Notes under the pieces: generated by a model | Database searches by the model: none | The model's input: only the letters and a program-made list of their open reading frames with translations | Told to the model about the DNA's origin: nothing | Virus record (IMG/VR): IMGVR_UViG_3300048065_000354 | Location: 1 to 25,829 of that record | Source of the DNA: a virus | Direction: 5' to 3' (one strand) | Length of the DNA stretch: 25,829 nucleotides | Made by a program: the position numbers and the translations under genes | Part shown: positions 10,166 to 15,884 of the stretch, piece by piece | How positions within the stretch are numbered: position 1 is the stretch's first letter | Layout of the letters: each line of letters begins with the position of its first letter

Positions 10166-12127
10166 ATGAACAATTTTTTACCAACAGATTACCAGAATTT
10201 TATTGCCTTGTCACGTTATGCACGTTGGAAGGAAGACGAAGATAGACGTGAGACATGGCCTGAAACAGTCAGCAGATATTTTGATTATATGTCTGACCAT
10301 CTAAGCAAGAAACATAATTACAATCTAAAAGATGGACTACGTAAAGAGCTAGAAGAAGCTGTACTTACACAGCAAATCATGCCCTCTATGAGAGCACTGA
10401 TGACTTCTGGTCCTGCATTAGACCGTTGCCATGTAGGTGGTTATAACTGTTCCTACATTCCTGTTGATAGCCCTCGTGCCTTTGACGAATGTATGTACAT
10501 CCTAATGTGTGGTACAGGTGTAGGCTTCTCAGTAGAACGCAACAACATTGACAAGCTACCTATTGTAAATGAAACATTCCATGAAACAGATACAGTAATC
10601 AAGGTAGGTGACAGCCGCCCCGGATGGGCTAAGTCATTACGTGAACTGATTGCCATGCTATATGCAGGTCAGATTCCAAAGTGGGATGTATCAGAAGTAC
10701 GTCCTGCAGGAGCAAGGCTAAAGACTTTTGGTGGACGTGCATCAGGTCCTGCCCCTCTGATTGACCTATTTAACTTCTGCATTGATAAGTTCAAGGGTGC
10801 AGCAGGGCGTAGGCTTTACCCTATTGAGTGTCACGATTTGATGTGTAAGATTGGTGAGGTTGTAGTTGTAGGTGGCGTAAGACGTTCTGCTCTTATCAGC
10901 TTGTCAAATCTTAACGATGACCAGATGCGTCATGCAAAGACAGGTGAATGGTGGGATGAGCCAGACAAGAACATCAAGCGTGAAGGACAACGTGCTCTAG
11001 CTAATAACTCTGTTGCTTACAAAGAGAAGCCTCAGATGGGTACATTCATGCGTGAGTGGTTGTCTCTATACGAATCACATTCAGGTGAACGTGGTATCTT
11101 CAATCGTGAATCTGCTAAGAGACAAGCAGCAAGCAACGGCAGACGTGACCCTGACCATCAGTTTGGTTGTAACCCTTGTTCAGAAATTATCTTACGTCCT
11201 TACCAGTTTTGTAATCTATCAGAGGTAGTTGTACGTTCTACAGATAACATAGAGACATTGGAAAACAAGGTACGTCTAGCTACTATTCTTGGTACATTCC
11301 AAGCTACACTTACAGACTTTAAATACATTCGTAAAATCTGGAAGGACAACACAGAAGAAGAACGTCTACTTGGTGTATCTCTTACAGGCATTATGGATAA
11401 CCAGTTGATGTCAGGTAAGAGTGCTATGCATGGTATGAACATCAAAAATATACTTACTTCTTTGAAGGACACAGCCATTGAGACAAACGAACAGATGTCT
11501 AAGTCTCTAGGTATACCACAAGCCGCAGCTATTACTTGTGTAAAGCCTTCTGGTACAGTATCTCAGCTAGTAGATAGTGCATCTGGTATTCATGCTAGAC
11601 ATAATCCTTACTATATTCGTACTGTTCGTGGTGATAACAAAGACCCTATCACGCAGTTTATGATTGCACAGGGTATTCCTAATGAGCCTGATGTAGGTAA
11701 GCCAGACAGCACAACAGTCTTCAGCTTCCCAATGAGGTCACCTACAGGAGCAGTAACACGTACTGAGATGTCAGCTATTGAGCAGCTTGAGTTGTGGCTA
11801 CTCTATCAGAAGCATTGGTGTGAACACAAACCTTCTGTAACTATCTCTGTGAAAGAACATGAGTGGCTAGAGGTTGGCTCATGGGTATATGATAACTTTG
11901 ACGATGTGTCAGGTATCAGCTTCCTACCTTTTAGTGAGCATACATATCAGCAAGCACCTTATCAGGATATTACTAGTGAAGAATATGATAAGGCAATGGA
12001 AGGTATGCCAGCTAAGATTGACTGGTCTTTACTCTCAGACTTTGAGAAGGAAGATACAACATCAGGTGGACGTGAATTAGCTTGTACCGCAGGTGTCTGC
12101 GAAGTAGTGGACTTGACAGCAGCATGA
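10166..12127 (+). CDS. nrdJ: Class II (adenosylcobalamin-dependent) ribonucleotide reductase, monomeric type, 653 aa
   Basis: Reduces ribonucleotides to deoxyribonucleotides using a thiyl radical generated from adenosylcobalamin. The sequence shows the expected residues: Cys95 in GGYNCSY, the radical Cys338 in NPCSE with Glu340, and its partner Cys349 in QFCNLSE. The 338-349 spacing equals that of Cys408 and Cys419 in the Lactobacillus leichmannii enzyme. The C-terminal shuttle pair is present as Cys640 and Cys645 (ACTAGVC), again with family spacing. It is shorter than the 739-aa Lactobacillus enzyme, mostly between Cys95 and Cys338. It supplies dNTPs for phage replication and makes phage growth depend on host B12. 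Own promoter upstream; ATGA overlap with the next gene. Confidence 0.93.
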   Translation: MNNFLPTDYQNFIALSRYARWKEDEDRRETWPETVSRYFDYMSDHLSKKHNYNLKDGLRKELEEAVLTQQIMPSMRALMTSGPALDRCHVGGYNCSYIPVDSPRAFDECMYILMCGTGVGFSVERNNIDKLPIVNETFHETDTVIKVGDSRPGWAKSLRELIAMLYAGQIPKWDVSEVRPAGARLKTFGGRASGPAPLIDLFNFCIDKFKGAAGRRLYPIECHDLMCKIGEVVVVGGVRRSALISLSNLNDDQMRHAKTGEWWDEPDKNIKREGQRALANNSVAYKEKPQMGTFMREWLSLYESHSGERGIFNRESAKRQAASNGRRDPDHQFGCNPCSEIILRPYQFCNLSEVVVRSTDNIETLENKVRLATILGTFQATLTDFKYIRKIWKDNTEEERLLGVSLTGIMDNQLMSGKSAMHGMNIKNILTSLKDTAIETNEQMSKSLGIPQAAAITCVKPSGTVSQLVDSASGIHARHNPYYIRTVRGDNKDPITQFMIAQGIPNEPDVGKPDSTTVFSFPMRSPTGAVTRTEMSAIEQLELWLLYQKHWCEHKPSVTISVKEHEWLEVGSWVYDNFDDVSGISFLPFSEHTYQQAPYQDITSEEYDKAMEGMPAKIDWSLLSDFEKEDTTSGGRELACTAGVCEVVDLTAA

Positions 12128-12285
12128 TTTGGGAATACTGGTGCAAAGCAATGGGCAGCAAGGCATATGATGACGATGACAAAGCAAACAAGGTAGCGAT
12201 ACTGCGAACTGCTTGGGTTATCCTTCATGTCCTTGCTTGCCTAGCCATCATTATGCATAATACGCAGAAGATGGGTTGGTGGTAA
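12124..12285 (+). CDS. Small membrane protein, 53 aa, coupled to the reductase
   Basis: The ATG overlaps the reductase stop (ATGA). Starts MIWEYWCKAMGSKAYDDDDK; residues about 29-44 (AWVILHVLACLAIIMH) form a membrane helix, and the C-terminus is QKMGWW. An aromatic N-terminus followed by a DDDD stretch is unusual. Unrecognised. Confidence 0.6.
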   Translation: MIWEYWCKAMGSKAYDDDDKANKVAILRTAWVILHVLACLAIIMHNTQKMGWW

Positions 12286-12288
12286 ATG

Positions 12289-12306
12289 TTAATACTATAG
12301 TATTAA
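12289..12306. repeat. Perfect 18-bp palindrome TTAATACTATAGTATTAA
   Basis: The 18 bases are identical to their reverse complement. Located 3 bp after a gene stop, in the 206-bp gap before the next gene. TAGTATTAAT at its right half recurs at 12342 and 2449. As RNA it would form a weak hairpin without a U run, so a DNA-level operator role is at least as likely as termination. Confidence 0.5.
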
Positions 12307-12340
12307 TAAGTCTTATAAACAAGGCATAAGTAACACTAAA

Positions 12341-12356
12341 GTAGTATTAATGCTAC
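12341..12356. repeat. Imperfect 16-bp palindrome GTAGTATTAATGCTAC
   Basis: Self-complementary apart from one G-T wobble position. It shares TAGTATTAAT with the palindromes at 12289 and 2449 and lies directly upstream of the GC-rich structured element. Confidence 0.4.
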
Positions 12357-12361
12357 AAAGA

Positions 12362-12473
12362 TGTTGGTACTTTCTGTAGACCCTTTAAATCGAGAGGCCA
12401 CTTATAAGTGCCGCAGCACCAGTGGTAGGGATAGGCCGGGAAAGCTAAGAGAATGGATGTGAGACTGCCAACA
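12362..12473 (+). ncRNA. Candidate structured cis-regulatory RNA, about 112 nt, class unknown
   Basis: A GC-rich island in AT-rich surroundings that folds into nested helices. Closing helix: TGTTGGTA (12362-12369) with TGCCAACA (12466-12473), one wobble. Then CTTTC (12370-12374) with GAAAG (12440-12444), CCCT (12381-12384) with AGGG (12427-12430), CCACT (12398-12402) with AGTGG (12421-12425), and GTGC/GCAC capped by CGCA (12408-12419). It ends 6 nt before an AAGGAG ribosome binding site, the usual place for a riboswitch or translational leader. A 33-codon frame (12361-12462) also crosses it, but uses codons rare in this phage. Fold by eye only. Confidence 0.45.
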
Positions 12474-12491
12474 CATTATAAGGAGAAGTAG

Positions 12492-12644
12492 ATGGAAGTA
12501 ACACACTACGAGGAAAATGGAGATGGCTCTGCCACTATACAGGTGATTATGGATATTGAAGAAAGTGCAAAGCTAATAGAGCTAGGCCTTTTAACGGCTC
12601 TAAAAAACTACATAGAAGACAACGAGAAGAAAGATAATGATTGA
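12492..12644 (+). CDS. Hypothetical small acidic protein, 50 aa
   Basis: Preceded by a strong AAGGAGAAGTAG ribosome binding site that follows the candidate structured RNA. Starts MEVTHYEENGDGSATIQVIM and ends KNYIEDNEKKDND: a beta segment followed by a helix and a charged tail. If the upstream RNA is a regulatory switch, this protein and the next one are what it controls. No family recognised. Overlaps the next gene by 8 nt. Confidence 0.6.
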   Translation: MEVTHYEENGDGSATIQVIMDIEESAKLIELGLLTALKNYIEDNEKKDND

Positions 12645-12756
12645 TGGTTTAGATTGGCCTAACTGGTGGCAGTGGTGGTTGCTCATGGCAATTAGTATAA
12701 ACACTACTATTAACATAATAGTATTCTTTAGACATAGGTTTAGAAAAAAAGATTGA
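12637..12756 (+). CDS. Trp-rich small membrane protein, 39 aa
   Basis: Starts MIDGLDWPNWWQWWLLMAIS, continues with an Ile/Asn/Thr/Phe-rich membrane segment, and ends in a basic tail RHRFRKKD. An aromatic interface belt, a membrane helix and a basic cytoplasmic tail is the design of small phage membrane effectors and some holins, but no family is recognised. Its stop codon lies inside the -35 box of the downstream promoter (12753-12758). An 8-bp inverted repeat (12705-12723) lies within the coding sequence. Confidence 0.5.
   Translation: MIDGLDWPNWWQWWLLMAISINTTINIIVFFRHRFRKKD
12705..12723. repeat. Inverted repeat TACTATTA-ACA-TAATAGTA
   Basis: Perfect 8-bp arms with a 3-bp centre, located 29 bp upstream of the -35 box of the 12753 promoter. 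That position and symmetry suit a regulator binding site. The arms resemble, but do not equal, the TAGTATTA palindromes at 12289 and 12341. Confidence 0.4.
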
Positions 12757-12781
12757 CAACTATAAATTGTTAAAGTATAAT
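12753..12781 (+). promoter_or_regulatory. Consensus sigma70 promoter before the glycosyltransferase genes
   Basis: TTGACA (12753-12758), a 17-bp spacer, and TATAAT (12776-12781): a perfect match to the bacterial housekeeping promoter. The glycosyltransferase ATG follows at 12811 after an AAAGGA ribosome binding site, giving a leader of roughly 20-25 nt. It should be one of the strongest host-type promoters in the window, although the exact consensus can slow promoter escape. Confidence 0.85.
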
Positions 12782-12810: not shown

Positions 12811-13587
12811 ATGTTTGTAGAAAAAAGACCAGTAATTTATGTAGGATATGATGCAAGGGAGCATGAGGCTTATGAAGTATTACGTAAATCAATTCAAAGA
12901 TACAATACAAAATACGATATCATACCTCTCGTACAACCAGCCCTTCGTAGAGCAGGTTTGTATAGGCGTACTATTCGGTTTGATAGTAATGCTGAGTCTG
13001 TTACTAGGATAGACGAGTTTGATGGCAGACCTTTTAGTTCTGACTTTACCTTCACACGTTTCCTAGTTCCTGCTCTAAACCAGTATGATGGTCTGGCTCT
13101 ATTTATGGATGCAGATATGTTTGTACGTTGGGATATTGAAGAACTATTTACTACATATGGTAATCGTGAAGAGTTTGCTGTTCAAGTAGTAAAACATAAT
13201 TACAGACCCAATGAAGGTTTGAAAATGGATGGTCAAGTACAACAAAACTATAACCGTAAAAACTGGTCAAGCTTTGTCCTTTGGAATTGTTCACATCCTT
13301 CTAATCTAAACCTAACTGTAGACGATGTAAATACAAAGTCTGGAAGCTGGTTGCATGGGTTCTCATGGCTGTCTGATAATGAGATTGGCTCTATTGAACC
13401 TGAATGGAACTGGTTAGATGGATGGTCACCAGAGAATGTCTTACCAAAGAATGTACACTTTACTACAGGTGGTCCTTGGTTTGAAGATTGGGAAGGTAAA
13501 CGTAAATCAGACACTGAATATGCTGGTGAATGGCAAGCATTTAAAAGCAAAGTGTTTATGGATAAACTTGTAGGAGAAGTAATTTAA
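12811..13587 (+). CDS. Glycosyltransferase, GT8-like (GT-A fold), 258 aa
   Basis: Likely transfers a sugar from a nucleotide-sugar donor. The N-terminus (PVIYVGYDAREHEAYEVLRK) is the first Rossmann-like strand and helix of a GT-A fold. DAD at 100-102 (ALFMDADMFVRWDI) is the metal and donor-binding DxD motif. HFTTGGPWF at 216-224 parallels the HFxGxxKPW ending of GT8 enzymes. No signal peptide or membrane segment, so it should act in the cytoplasm. The target may be host lipopolysaccharide, a phage protein or a base; the sequence does not say. It is the first gene after a consensus promoter, and its last base is the first base of the large fusion gene, so the two are translated together. Confidence 0.82.
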   Translation: MFVEKRPVIYVGYDAREHEAYEVLRKSIQRYNTKYDIIPLVQPALRRAGLYRRTIRFDSNAESVTRIDEFDGRPFSSDFTFTRFLVPALNQYDGLALFMDADMFVRWDIEELFTTYGNREEFAVQVVKHNYRPNEGLKMDGQVQQNYNRKNWSSFVLWNCSHPSNLNLTVDDVNTKSGSWLHGFSWLSDNEIGSIEPEWNWLDGWSPENVLPKNVHFTTGGPWFEDWEGKRKSDTEYAGEWQAFKSKVFMDKLVGEVI

Positions 13588-15884
13588 TGTATACATTTGT
13601 AACCTCATTTAGTGAAAGTGGATACCATGAATATGCCAAGAAAATGTTGGAAAGTGTTACTGAAAAGTGGAATCCAAAACACTTTCAGTTATATGCCTAC
13701 TACCATGACTTCAACATTGAAGATGTTGATGCCCCTATGGCTGATAATATTCATTACCGCAATCTTAACGACATAACAGAAATGACGCAGTACCGTGAAC
13801 GTATGAAGACATATGACGGTACACATGGTGGAACACAACCATATAACTGGCGGCTTGACGCAATAAAGTGGTGTCATAAAGTGTATGCTTTGTCCGACCT
13901 TGCATTTGAAATGATGGAACAGGAAGAGCATGACGAAAGTAACTGGATGATTTGGTTAGATGCAGATACCGTCACAACAAAAAGACTAGATGTAAAACAA
14001 TTTCCTAAGTGGTTGCCAGACAAAGCAGACTTAGTACATCTTGGCAGAAAGGATGCAGACTATAGTGAAACAAGCTTTATTGGGTTTAACCTATCTTCTC
14101 ATAATACTTGCAGTATCATTGCTGATTTTAGGGGGGCTTACACTATTGGAGAAACCATTGCATATAGAGAGTGGCATGACGGGTTCATATTTGAACGACT
14201 CCTCAACATCTACAAAGCACACGGAATGGTCACTAAAAACTTATCTGAACACGCCAAAGGACTAGCAGCATTTGCTCAGTCACCTTTGTCAGAATACTTT
14301 GACCATTTCAAAGGTAACCTAAAAAAGAAACTTAGCACTACAGAAGTTGCTCCTGATGTAAGAGGACCTAAACGGTACAAGCAACTTGCCGATATGGTAC
14401 GTTTCTATAAGCCAAGTACCATTGTGGAAACAGGTACATGGAATGGTGGACGTGCAATTGAAATGGCTCTGGCTGCTTTTGAACATACAGACAATGTACA
14501 TTATATTGGCTTTGATTTGTTTGAAGAAGCAACAGAAGAATCTGATGAATATGAAATGAATAGTAAGGCACATAACATGCTTGAGGCTGTTCATAAAAGA
14601 CTAGATGATTTCTCTTATCGTATGTCTCGTACTGATAAGAAGTTTACTTTTGAATTATATAAGGGTGACAGTAAAGAAACTGTACCTGCTTGTGATATGG
14701 TAAAGAAAGCAGACTTTGCATATATTGATGGTGGACATTCTTATGAAACAGTAAAAGCAGATTGGGAAAACATTAAACCATATGTTCCTGTTGTTGTATT
14801 TGATGACTACTTCTCTAAGGACAATCAGGGCAATCTTCCTAAAGAGGAACATCTTGGTGTAAACAAACTAATGGGAGAAATAGAAGCTTATGGAAAAGTG
14901 GTATTGCCTAGCTCTGACGGTGTTCTTGGTGGTGGCATTACACATCTTTGTTTTGTAGCCAACAAAAAAGGATTACCTAAACTACCTGACGAACTAACTC
15001 GTGTACCTATTGTGGTTACACCAAAAGACTCACGACCTAAACAAGAAATTATTGACAATGTAAAAGAGAATAGAAAGTTAATCAAAGACTTTGATTGGAT
15101 TAAGACAAGTAAAGTTAATGACGAAACTGCAATCATTGTCTCTGGTGGTGAGATTGATTTTGATAAGTTAAAAGAACGTATAGCTGCCACTAACAATAAA
15201 GTATTCTGTGTTAAGCATAGTTATCCACGTTTGATTGAGAATGGTATTCAACCATTTGCTTGTGTGATACTTGACCCTAGACCTATTGATGGTATCAGTA
15301 CACATGGAGTAAAACGTAAGGACTTGTTTAAGAAGATAGACAATGAAACTATTTTCCTTGTTGCTTCTATGACTGACCCTTCTGTTACTAAGCATCTTCT
15401 TAAAAAGAAAGCTAATGTAAAAGGATGGCAAGCTTATTCAGATGCTCTTCGTGATATGGAAGTAAAGGATAAGATTGTAGTAGACAAAGAAACAGGTATT
15501 GACGAAGGCTCTACTCTTATTACAGGTGGTACTTGTGCAGCCATGAGAACACTTGCAATAGGTCATACACTTGGCTTCCGAAACTTTGAGTTGTTTGGTT
15601 TTGATTGTTCTATTCCAGAAGTTACAGAGGAAATGAAGAAAGAAACCACAGATACAGAGCAGAACAAACCAAAGTATATGAAGGTAGAGTTAAATGATAA
15701 GCACTTCTGGACTACTGGTGAGCTACTTGCTATGGCACAGGATTGTGAAAAACTATTTGACCAGATGGAGATTGATATGGGTGTGCTTTTCCACGGTGAT
15801 AATACACTTTGTTCAGAAGTTTGGAAGGCTTCCAAGAGAGGCCAAGAGAAACATTACTCAGAGTTACTAAATGTCGCAGCTTAA
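13587..15884 (+). CDS. Three-domain fusion: glycosyltransferase + class I methyltransferase + DUF115-like, 765 aa
   Basis: Residues 1-245 look like a second GT-A glycosyltransferase (MYTFVTSFSESGYHEYAKKM; DAD at 125-127 in WMIWLDADTV; later REWHDGFIFERL). Residues 260-460 form a Methyltransf_24-like Rossmann domain, with SAM-binding VETGTWNGG (280-288), FDLFEE (309-314), GD at 360-361, YIDGGHSYE (379-387) and VFDDYF (404-409). Residues 490-750 resemble the DUF115/MptE-like domain seen in motility accessory and flagellin glycosylation proteins (IIVSGGEID 516-524; TLITGGTCAAMRTLAIGHTL; FELFGFD). No frameshift is visible, and the start overlaps the upstream glycosyltransferase by 1 nt. It looks like a sugar-building or surface-modification enzyme; substrate unknown. 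Confidence 0.75.
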   Translation: MYTFVTSFSESGYHEYAKKMLESVTEKWNPKHFQLYAYYHDFNIEDVDAPMADNIHYRNLNDITEMTQYRERMKTYDGTHGGTQPYNWRLDAIKWCHKVYALSDLAFEMMEQEEHDESNWMIWLDADTVTTKRLDVKQFPKWLPDKADLVHLGRKDADYSETSFIGFNLSSHNTCSIIADFRGAYTIGETIAYREWHDGFIFERLLNIYKAHGMVTKNLSEHAKGLAAFAQSPLSEYFDHFKGNLKKKLSTTEVAPDVRGPKRYKQLADMVRFYKPSTIVETGTWNGGRAIEMALAAFEHTDNVHYIGFDLFEEATEESDEYEMNSKAHNMLEAVHKRLDDFSYRMSRTDKKFTFELYKGDSKETVPACDMVKKADFAYIDGGHSYETVKADWENIKPYVPVVVFDDYFSKDNQGNLPKEEHLGVNKLMGEIEAYGKVVLPSSDGVLGGGITHLCFVANKKGLPKLPDELTRVPIVVTPKDSRPKQEIIDNVKENRKLIKDFDWIKTSKVNDETAIIVSGGEIDFDKLKERIAATNNKVFCVKHSYPRLIENGIQPFACVILDPRPIDGISTHGVKRKDLFKKIDNETIFLVASMTDPSVTKHLLKKKANVKGWQAYSDALRDMEVKDKIVVDKETGIDEGSTLITGGTCAAMRTLAIGHTLGFRNFELFGFDCSIPEVTEEMKKETTDTEQNKPKYMKVELNDKHFWTTGELLAMAQDCEKLFDQMEIDMGVLFHGDNTLCSEVWKASKRGQEKHYSELLNVAA

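Follow-up and report, generated by a model that had tools for sequence, protein, structure and literature searches.

A conserved structured RNA element absent from Rfam 15 at gene junctions of uncultivated marine phages

The DNA analysed here (the window; 25,829 nt, + strand numbering), a 25.8-kb viral record, includes at positions 12362–12473 (+) a structured RNA element which is a member of a structured-RNA family absent from Rfam 15. This copy is of the long form, 112 nt from P1 to P1, and has relatives in 29 further contigs, in which the fold is supported by covariation. The reading that we prefer, with a probability of about 0.42, is that the element forms the conserved core domain in a type of phage noncoding RNA that is modular, is exchanged horizontally and acts as itself. 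Unrelated junctions, a strictly conserved core, a single copy per record and larger noncoding contexts favour an RNA of this kind.

Borders and relatives of the element

The first-pass annotation proposed a candidate new structured RNA at 12362–12473, and both the proposal and its borders stand: covariation is present, no Rfam match was obtained, and in an alignment of homologues conservation starts and stops at P1. The hexamer AAGGAG at 12480–12485 (+), a ribosome-binding site, lies six bases 3' of the closing stem, as described. Rfam 15 gave no match for the whole window at E ≤ 5, and none for a 151-base segment surrounding the element (12340–12490) at E ≤ 10. Searches at lax thresholds with the copies of L108 and L103 gave only chance-level matches to other families, and neither the element nor the larger noncoding regions described below reached a gathering score for any Rfam family, including small self-cleaving ribozymes, GOLLD and ROOL. 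The window copy, a training sequence of model R1, scores 148.2 bits with that model.

Homologues were collected from IMG/VR by using seven DNA patterns. The first, an 18-base core, retrieved 25 viral stretches, three of them by chance; five later patterns, differently placed or looser, and one last pattern followed, after which new true members ceased, saturating at 29 contigs besides the window. Pattern matches in L085, L101, L102, L114, L119 and L120, and weak model matches in L014, L016 and L021–L025, were rejected as chance. The element was not found in two pattern scans of 84,980 bacterial and archaeal genomes or by blastn against phage isolates and plasmids. As matches occur only in IMG/VR contigs, the family is rare, and its known range so far does not extend beyond viral contigs of uncultivated origin. 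Every carrier record searched contains one copy, always on the coding strand and in sense with the neighbouring genes.

A 33-codon frame at 12361–12462 had been named as the alternative, to be conserved as protein instead of as base pairs. This is excluded: the start codon is absent in L082, L086, L099 and L108, the number of codons before the stop ranges from 10 to 56, and the frame is shifted by inserts of 18, 19 and 20 nt.

Fold and covariation

The core folds as P1, P2, P3, a variable P4/P5 hairpin and, probably, a short pseudoknot (all on the + strand), and its pairs were evaluated in an alignment of 17 distinct sequences. P1, the previously noted 8-bp closing stem, pairs 12362–12369 with 12466–12473; a U-A/C-G exchange at columns 7-116 occurs in 7 of the 17 sequences, and the U-G wobble at columns 11-112 is invariant. 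P2 pairs 12370–12375 with 12439–12444, and its columns 17-85 pass from C-G through U-G to U-A. P3, in which CCCU (12381–12384) pairs with AGGG (12427–12430), is 100% paired with a single one-sided change (L098). The cap at 12398–12425 consists of P4 (12398–12402/12421–12425) and P5 (12408–12411/12416–12419), with compensatory changes in five pairs, three in P4 and two in P5; in L108, P4 reads CUC-GCAA-GAG in place of CCA/UGG. Two length forms, 86 nt and about 105 nt when measured from GGTACTTT to GACTGCC, differ only in this hairpin: in the 86-nt form P4 is capped by a tetraloop (CUUG, UUUA, GUUA or GCAA), and the form of about 105 nt carries P5.

A probable pseudoknot pairs CCG (12436–12438) with UGG (12454–12456), corresponding to columns 81-83 and 99-101. 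One compensatory event, a change from C-G to U-A at columns 81-101 in L108, points to this pairing, the other pairs being invariant. In topology, P2 and the pseudoknot would together form an H-type pseudoknot, in which the A-rich linker CUAAGAGAA could occupy the P2 groove.

Several lines of evidence support this fold. RNAalifold, unprompted, recovered P1 to P4, P3 included. Standard pairs occupy 98.1% of the base-pair cells versus 94.5% after shuffling, and 8 pairs show both-sided changes versus 3.1 ± 1.2 in shuffles; neither value was reached in 500 shuffles (0/500). The both-sided changes are located in P1, P2, P4, P5 and the pseudoknot, and the covariation signal collapses once partners are slid by 1–3 columns. 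With a tree-aware null written for this analysis, over 1035 column pairs, five of the nine top-ranked pairs are proposed pairs (hypergeometric 1.6e-9), and when the test is restricted to the proposed pairs, E is 0.009 for 7-116 in P1 and 0.018 for 44-67 in P4. When all 1035 pairs are considered, none reaches significance by itself, since the sequences number only 17 and are close to one another. Compensatory changes among the proposed pairs thus exceed the tree-aware null, as for a structured noncoding RNA, and the conserved, covarying fold is aptamer-like, as in riboswitches.

On the coding strand only, G-U pairs occur as invariant pairs or as intermediates (columns 11-112, 18-84, 83-99 and 26-73), and the RNA is therefore assigned to this strand. 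The folding energy of the element is ordinary (-27.4 kcal/mol; z = 0.16 versus dinucleotide shuffles), so that single-sequence folding by itself is no evidence for the structure. A GGCC/GGCC helix preferred by single-sequence folding (probability about 0.8 in the window copy) was rejected, as compensatory changes are absent from it and some of its bases belong to the covarying P4.

Gene neighbourhood, movement and noncoding context

In the window, the element is preceded by nrdJ for a B12-dependent (class II) ribonucleotide reductase (10166–12127, +; PF21995, PF02867), which has 76% nucleotide identity to nrdJ of Puniceispirillum phage HMO-2011, a marine podovirus type. A gene for a small membrane protein (12124–12285, +; 53 aa, phrog_1679) overlaps nrdJ by ATGA and is followed by a 76-nt noncoding leader with three A+T-rich hairpins (12286–12361, +; fold z = -2.27). 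This leader is common to L106, L100 and L105, with 96–97% identity in L100 and L105. At 12289–12306, within the leader, lies a perfect palindrome, TTAATACTATAGTATTAA, which is degenerate in L100 and L105. Farther downstream, a perfect sigma-70 promoter (12753–12781; TTGACA, 17 nt, TATAAT) is located 30 nt before a glycosyltransferase-like gene at 12811, and in L008 and L009 this gene is likewise preceded by a similar arrangement, TTGACT..TAGAAT. The stretch 12811–15884 encodes, on the + strand and just before convergent - strand genes, this glycosyltransferase family 8-like protein and then a 765-aa protein with methyltransferase and MptE-like domains.

The element and nrdJ differ greatly in sequence identity between records. 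In comparisons with the window and L002, the 76-base core is 93–100% identical where fourfold sites of the adjacent nrdJ, at 28–66%, are near saturation. The L002 nrdJ is 89% identical to that of the window, yet the L002 element is of the short form and has exactly the core sequence found in L084, although the nrdJ genes of L002 and L084 are only 66% identical. This mismatch indicates that the element and nrdJ have different histories. Part of the high core identity may stem from recent exchange instead of constraint.

Filled and empty junctions can be compared in close relatives. In L006 and L007, the nrdJ stop codon overlaps the next start codon by ATGA (GCAGCATGAGTAAC), and L002 and L003 have the element between these two genes, together with a stop codon and an AAGGAG site. 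Elsewhere, the genes in front of the element are holin-like or structural (L093, L099), a large structural-type gene adjoining terminase follows it (L098), or the record that carries it has T4-like features (L108); the flanks of these four copies are unrelated. As side observations, the spacer between nrdJ and the element at L109:1144–1220 (- strand) is, up to the edge of P1, wholly unlike that of the otherwise near-identical L107 group, which we read as probable recombination at the 5' edge of the element, and a Mu-gpT-DE RNA match (RF03012, 76 bits) is present beside the major head protein gene at L093:3450–3502 (- strand).

In some records the element belongs to a larger structured stretch. 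L083 and L096 have a domain of about 175 nt directly upstream of it, in which three compensatory pairs distinguish the two sequences; its folding z-value is -3.65 alone in L083 and -3.07 in L096 together with a further domain. The further upstream domain is common to L096 and L103 (88% identity), and the upstream domains in L096 have no Rfam match. The structured domains occupy L096:1390–1719, L083:1489–1665 (- strand) and L103:10185–10321; L103 is without the second upstream domain, with an apparent junction at a GGTTGGT repeat. The L108 copy is situated in a region which appears to be noncoding, judging from the absence of convincing frames, which folds better than shuffles over 551 nt (z = -2.83) and which ends in a 13-bp terminator-like hairpin. 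The large, apparently noncoding region L121:3870–4420 (- strand), with strong folding (z = -2.83) and a terminator-like hairpin, may be a separate large noncoding RNA; the L121 record has T4-like features and tctA/tctC-like transporter genes. The element thus resembles the constant part of a modular noncoding RNA, a core which can also occur on its own.

A small gene (MEVTHYEENGDGSATIQ...; 12492–12644, +) often lies directly downstream of the element. Its product belongs to a YEExDGSA family of about 50 residues; in the window, L099, L100, L105, L103, L096 and the L107 group, a gene of this family is the immediate downstream neighbour of the element. Relatives of this protein were found in 8 of 16 records with the element versus 0 of 32 without it (Fisher 3e-5; the records are related and the profile derives from element neighbours). 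The L108 record encodes the protein 5 kb from the element, and Roseobacter phage CRP-6 has the protein without the element. The association comes from few lineages and is a lead.

Mode of action, rival explanations and known systems

According to the preferred reading, the element would be transcribed in sense within phage operons, either by itself between two genes or inside a longer noncoding stretch that is structured. It would most likely act in trans, once released or protected from the operon transcript, by offering a fixed surface for contact with a protein or nucleic acid of the host or the phage, and it would pass from phage to phage as a small cassette, often followed by a short protein gene. 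This reading draws on the covariation, the coding-strand G-U pairs, the core identity above that of nrdJ, the L002/L084 histories, the structured stretches of L083, L096 and L108, and the location of the L108 small protein 5 kb away. Against it, a ribosome-binding site near P1 in most junctions fits a cis regulator too, and at L088 and L002 only a few bases separate the nrdJ stop codon from P1, so that no separate promoter is evident there. A more specific proposal, rather doubtful as a whole, is a new modular phage noncoding RNA class with a probably pseudoknotted transferable core, moving as an RNA-plus-protein cassette between unrelated marine phages and acting in trans, e.g., as a ribonucleoprotein or as a decoy against a host system.

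The same observations could be explained by a cis-acting aptamer, either an orphan riboswitch or a protein-binding leader, controlling translation of the next gene via the site at P1. To this we give a lesser though appreciable chance, as the orientation is sense throughout, the joining regions are conserved in an aptamer-like manner, the YEExDGSA gene is frequently next downstream, a ribosome-binding site follows P1 by 3–10 nt in most junctions, and the invariant CCUU of P3 could pair with the AAGG of this site. However, the downstream genes come from at least five unrelated families, three junctions (L098, L103, L108) have no nearby site, the L108 element is followed by the terminator-like hairpin and no gene, and no expression platform was recognised. 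A small self-cleaving ribozyme cutting phage polycistronic mRNA between genes is unlikely. Hammerheads, pistols and hatchets are known from phages in a comparable setting, and a length of about 86–112 nt, one closing stem, sharp borders, a probable pseudoknotted core and insertion between genes at varied places would suit a ribozyme, but the element matches no known ribozyme family in Rfam and its invariant positions are far more numerous than is usual in small ribozymes.

Mobility and empty sites might also suggest a recombination or attachment site, in which the folded single strand of DNA, not RNA, would matter; the L093 copy is flanked by an imperfect direct repeat, which is suggestive only (p about 0.007, one of 18 tests). 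Invariant U-G pairs and intermediates of the G-U type are confined to the coding strand, and the orientation to neighbouring genes is always sense; a DNA site would need neither, and we consider this explanation very improbable. The first-pass annotation had suggested a diverged riboswitch of the cobalamin class or, as equally possible, an unrelated ligand-binding RNA, and the B12 link is not borne out. Most carriers do encode nrdJ just upstream of the element, and GGU...GACUGCC has a superficial likeness to the cobalamin class, but the cobalamin and AdoCbl-variant covariance models gave no match in the 151 bases at E up to 10, the element sits downstream of nrdJ and not before it, and the core is identical at junctions or in records without nrdJ; none was found in the L108 (34.7 kb) and L093 (16 kb) records, which may be fragments. 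A cobalamin-class riboswitch is hence extremely improbable. A link to CsrA-type GGA motifs was dropped, as hosts of this kind, to our knowledge, mostly do not have CsrA.

Phages that infect abundant marine bacteria harbour an RNA family not represented in Rfam. Its core is far less variable than synonymous sites in the adjacent gene, and the family moves independently of that gene. So strict a folded core is usually the sign of a ligand, an active site or a surface for a partner, which makes the element a compact object for in-vitro study. Close relatives in which the junction is either empty or filled provide a natural before-and-after view of a small RNA cassette entering a tightly packed phage operon.

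Several known systems resemble the element in part. Cobalamin and AdoCbl-variant riboswitches (RF00174, RF01689) are alike in the P1 closing helix and the element is near a B12 enzyme in most carriers, but it has neither a covariance-model match nor the cobalamin core, and it lies downstream of that enzyme or occurs without it. The manA (RF01745) and wcaG (RF01761) RNAs, orphan marine-phage RNAs, have a similar distribution in marine phages and metagenomes and likewise precede mixed genes, with ligands unknown or uncertain (PMC2864571); unlike these, the element has no Rfam match, is present as a single copy and has flanks that show independent movement. Phage-borne ribozymes (hammerhead, PMC3088659; pistol, hatchet and twister) are likewise compact RNAs that change places between phage genes, whereas the element matches no family, and cleavage is hypothetical here. 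GOLLD and ROOL (PMC12286853), large ornate RNAs known from phages as well as bacteria, are likewise large structured noncoding stretches in phages, and the element is one domain of such a stretch in L083, L096 and L108; in contrast to GOLLD and ROOL, with which it has no sequence match, its core is only 86–112 nt and can stand alone.
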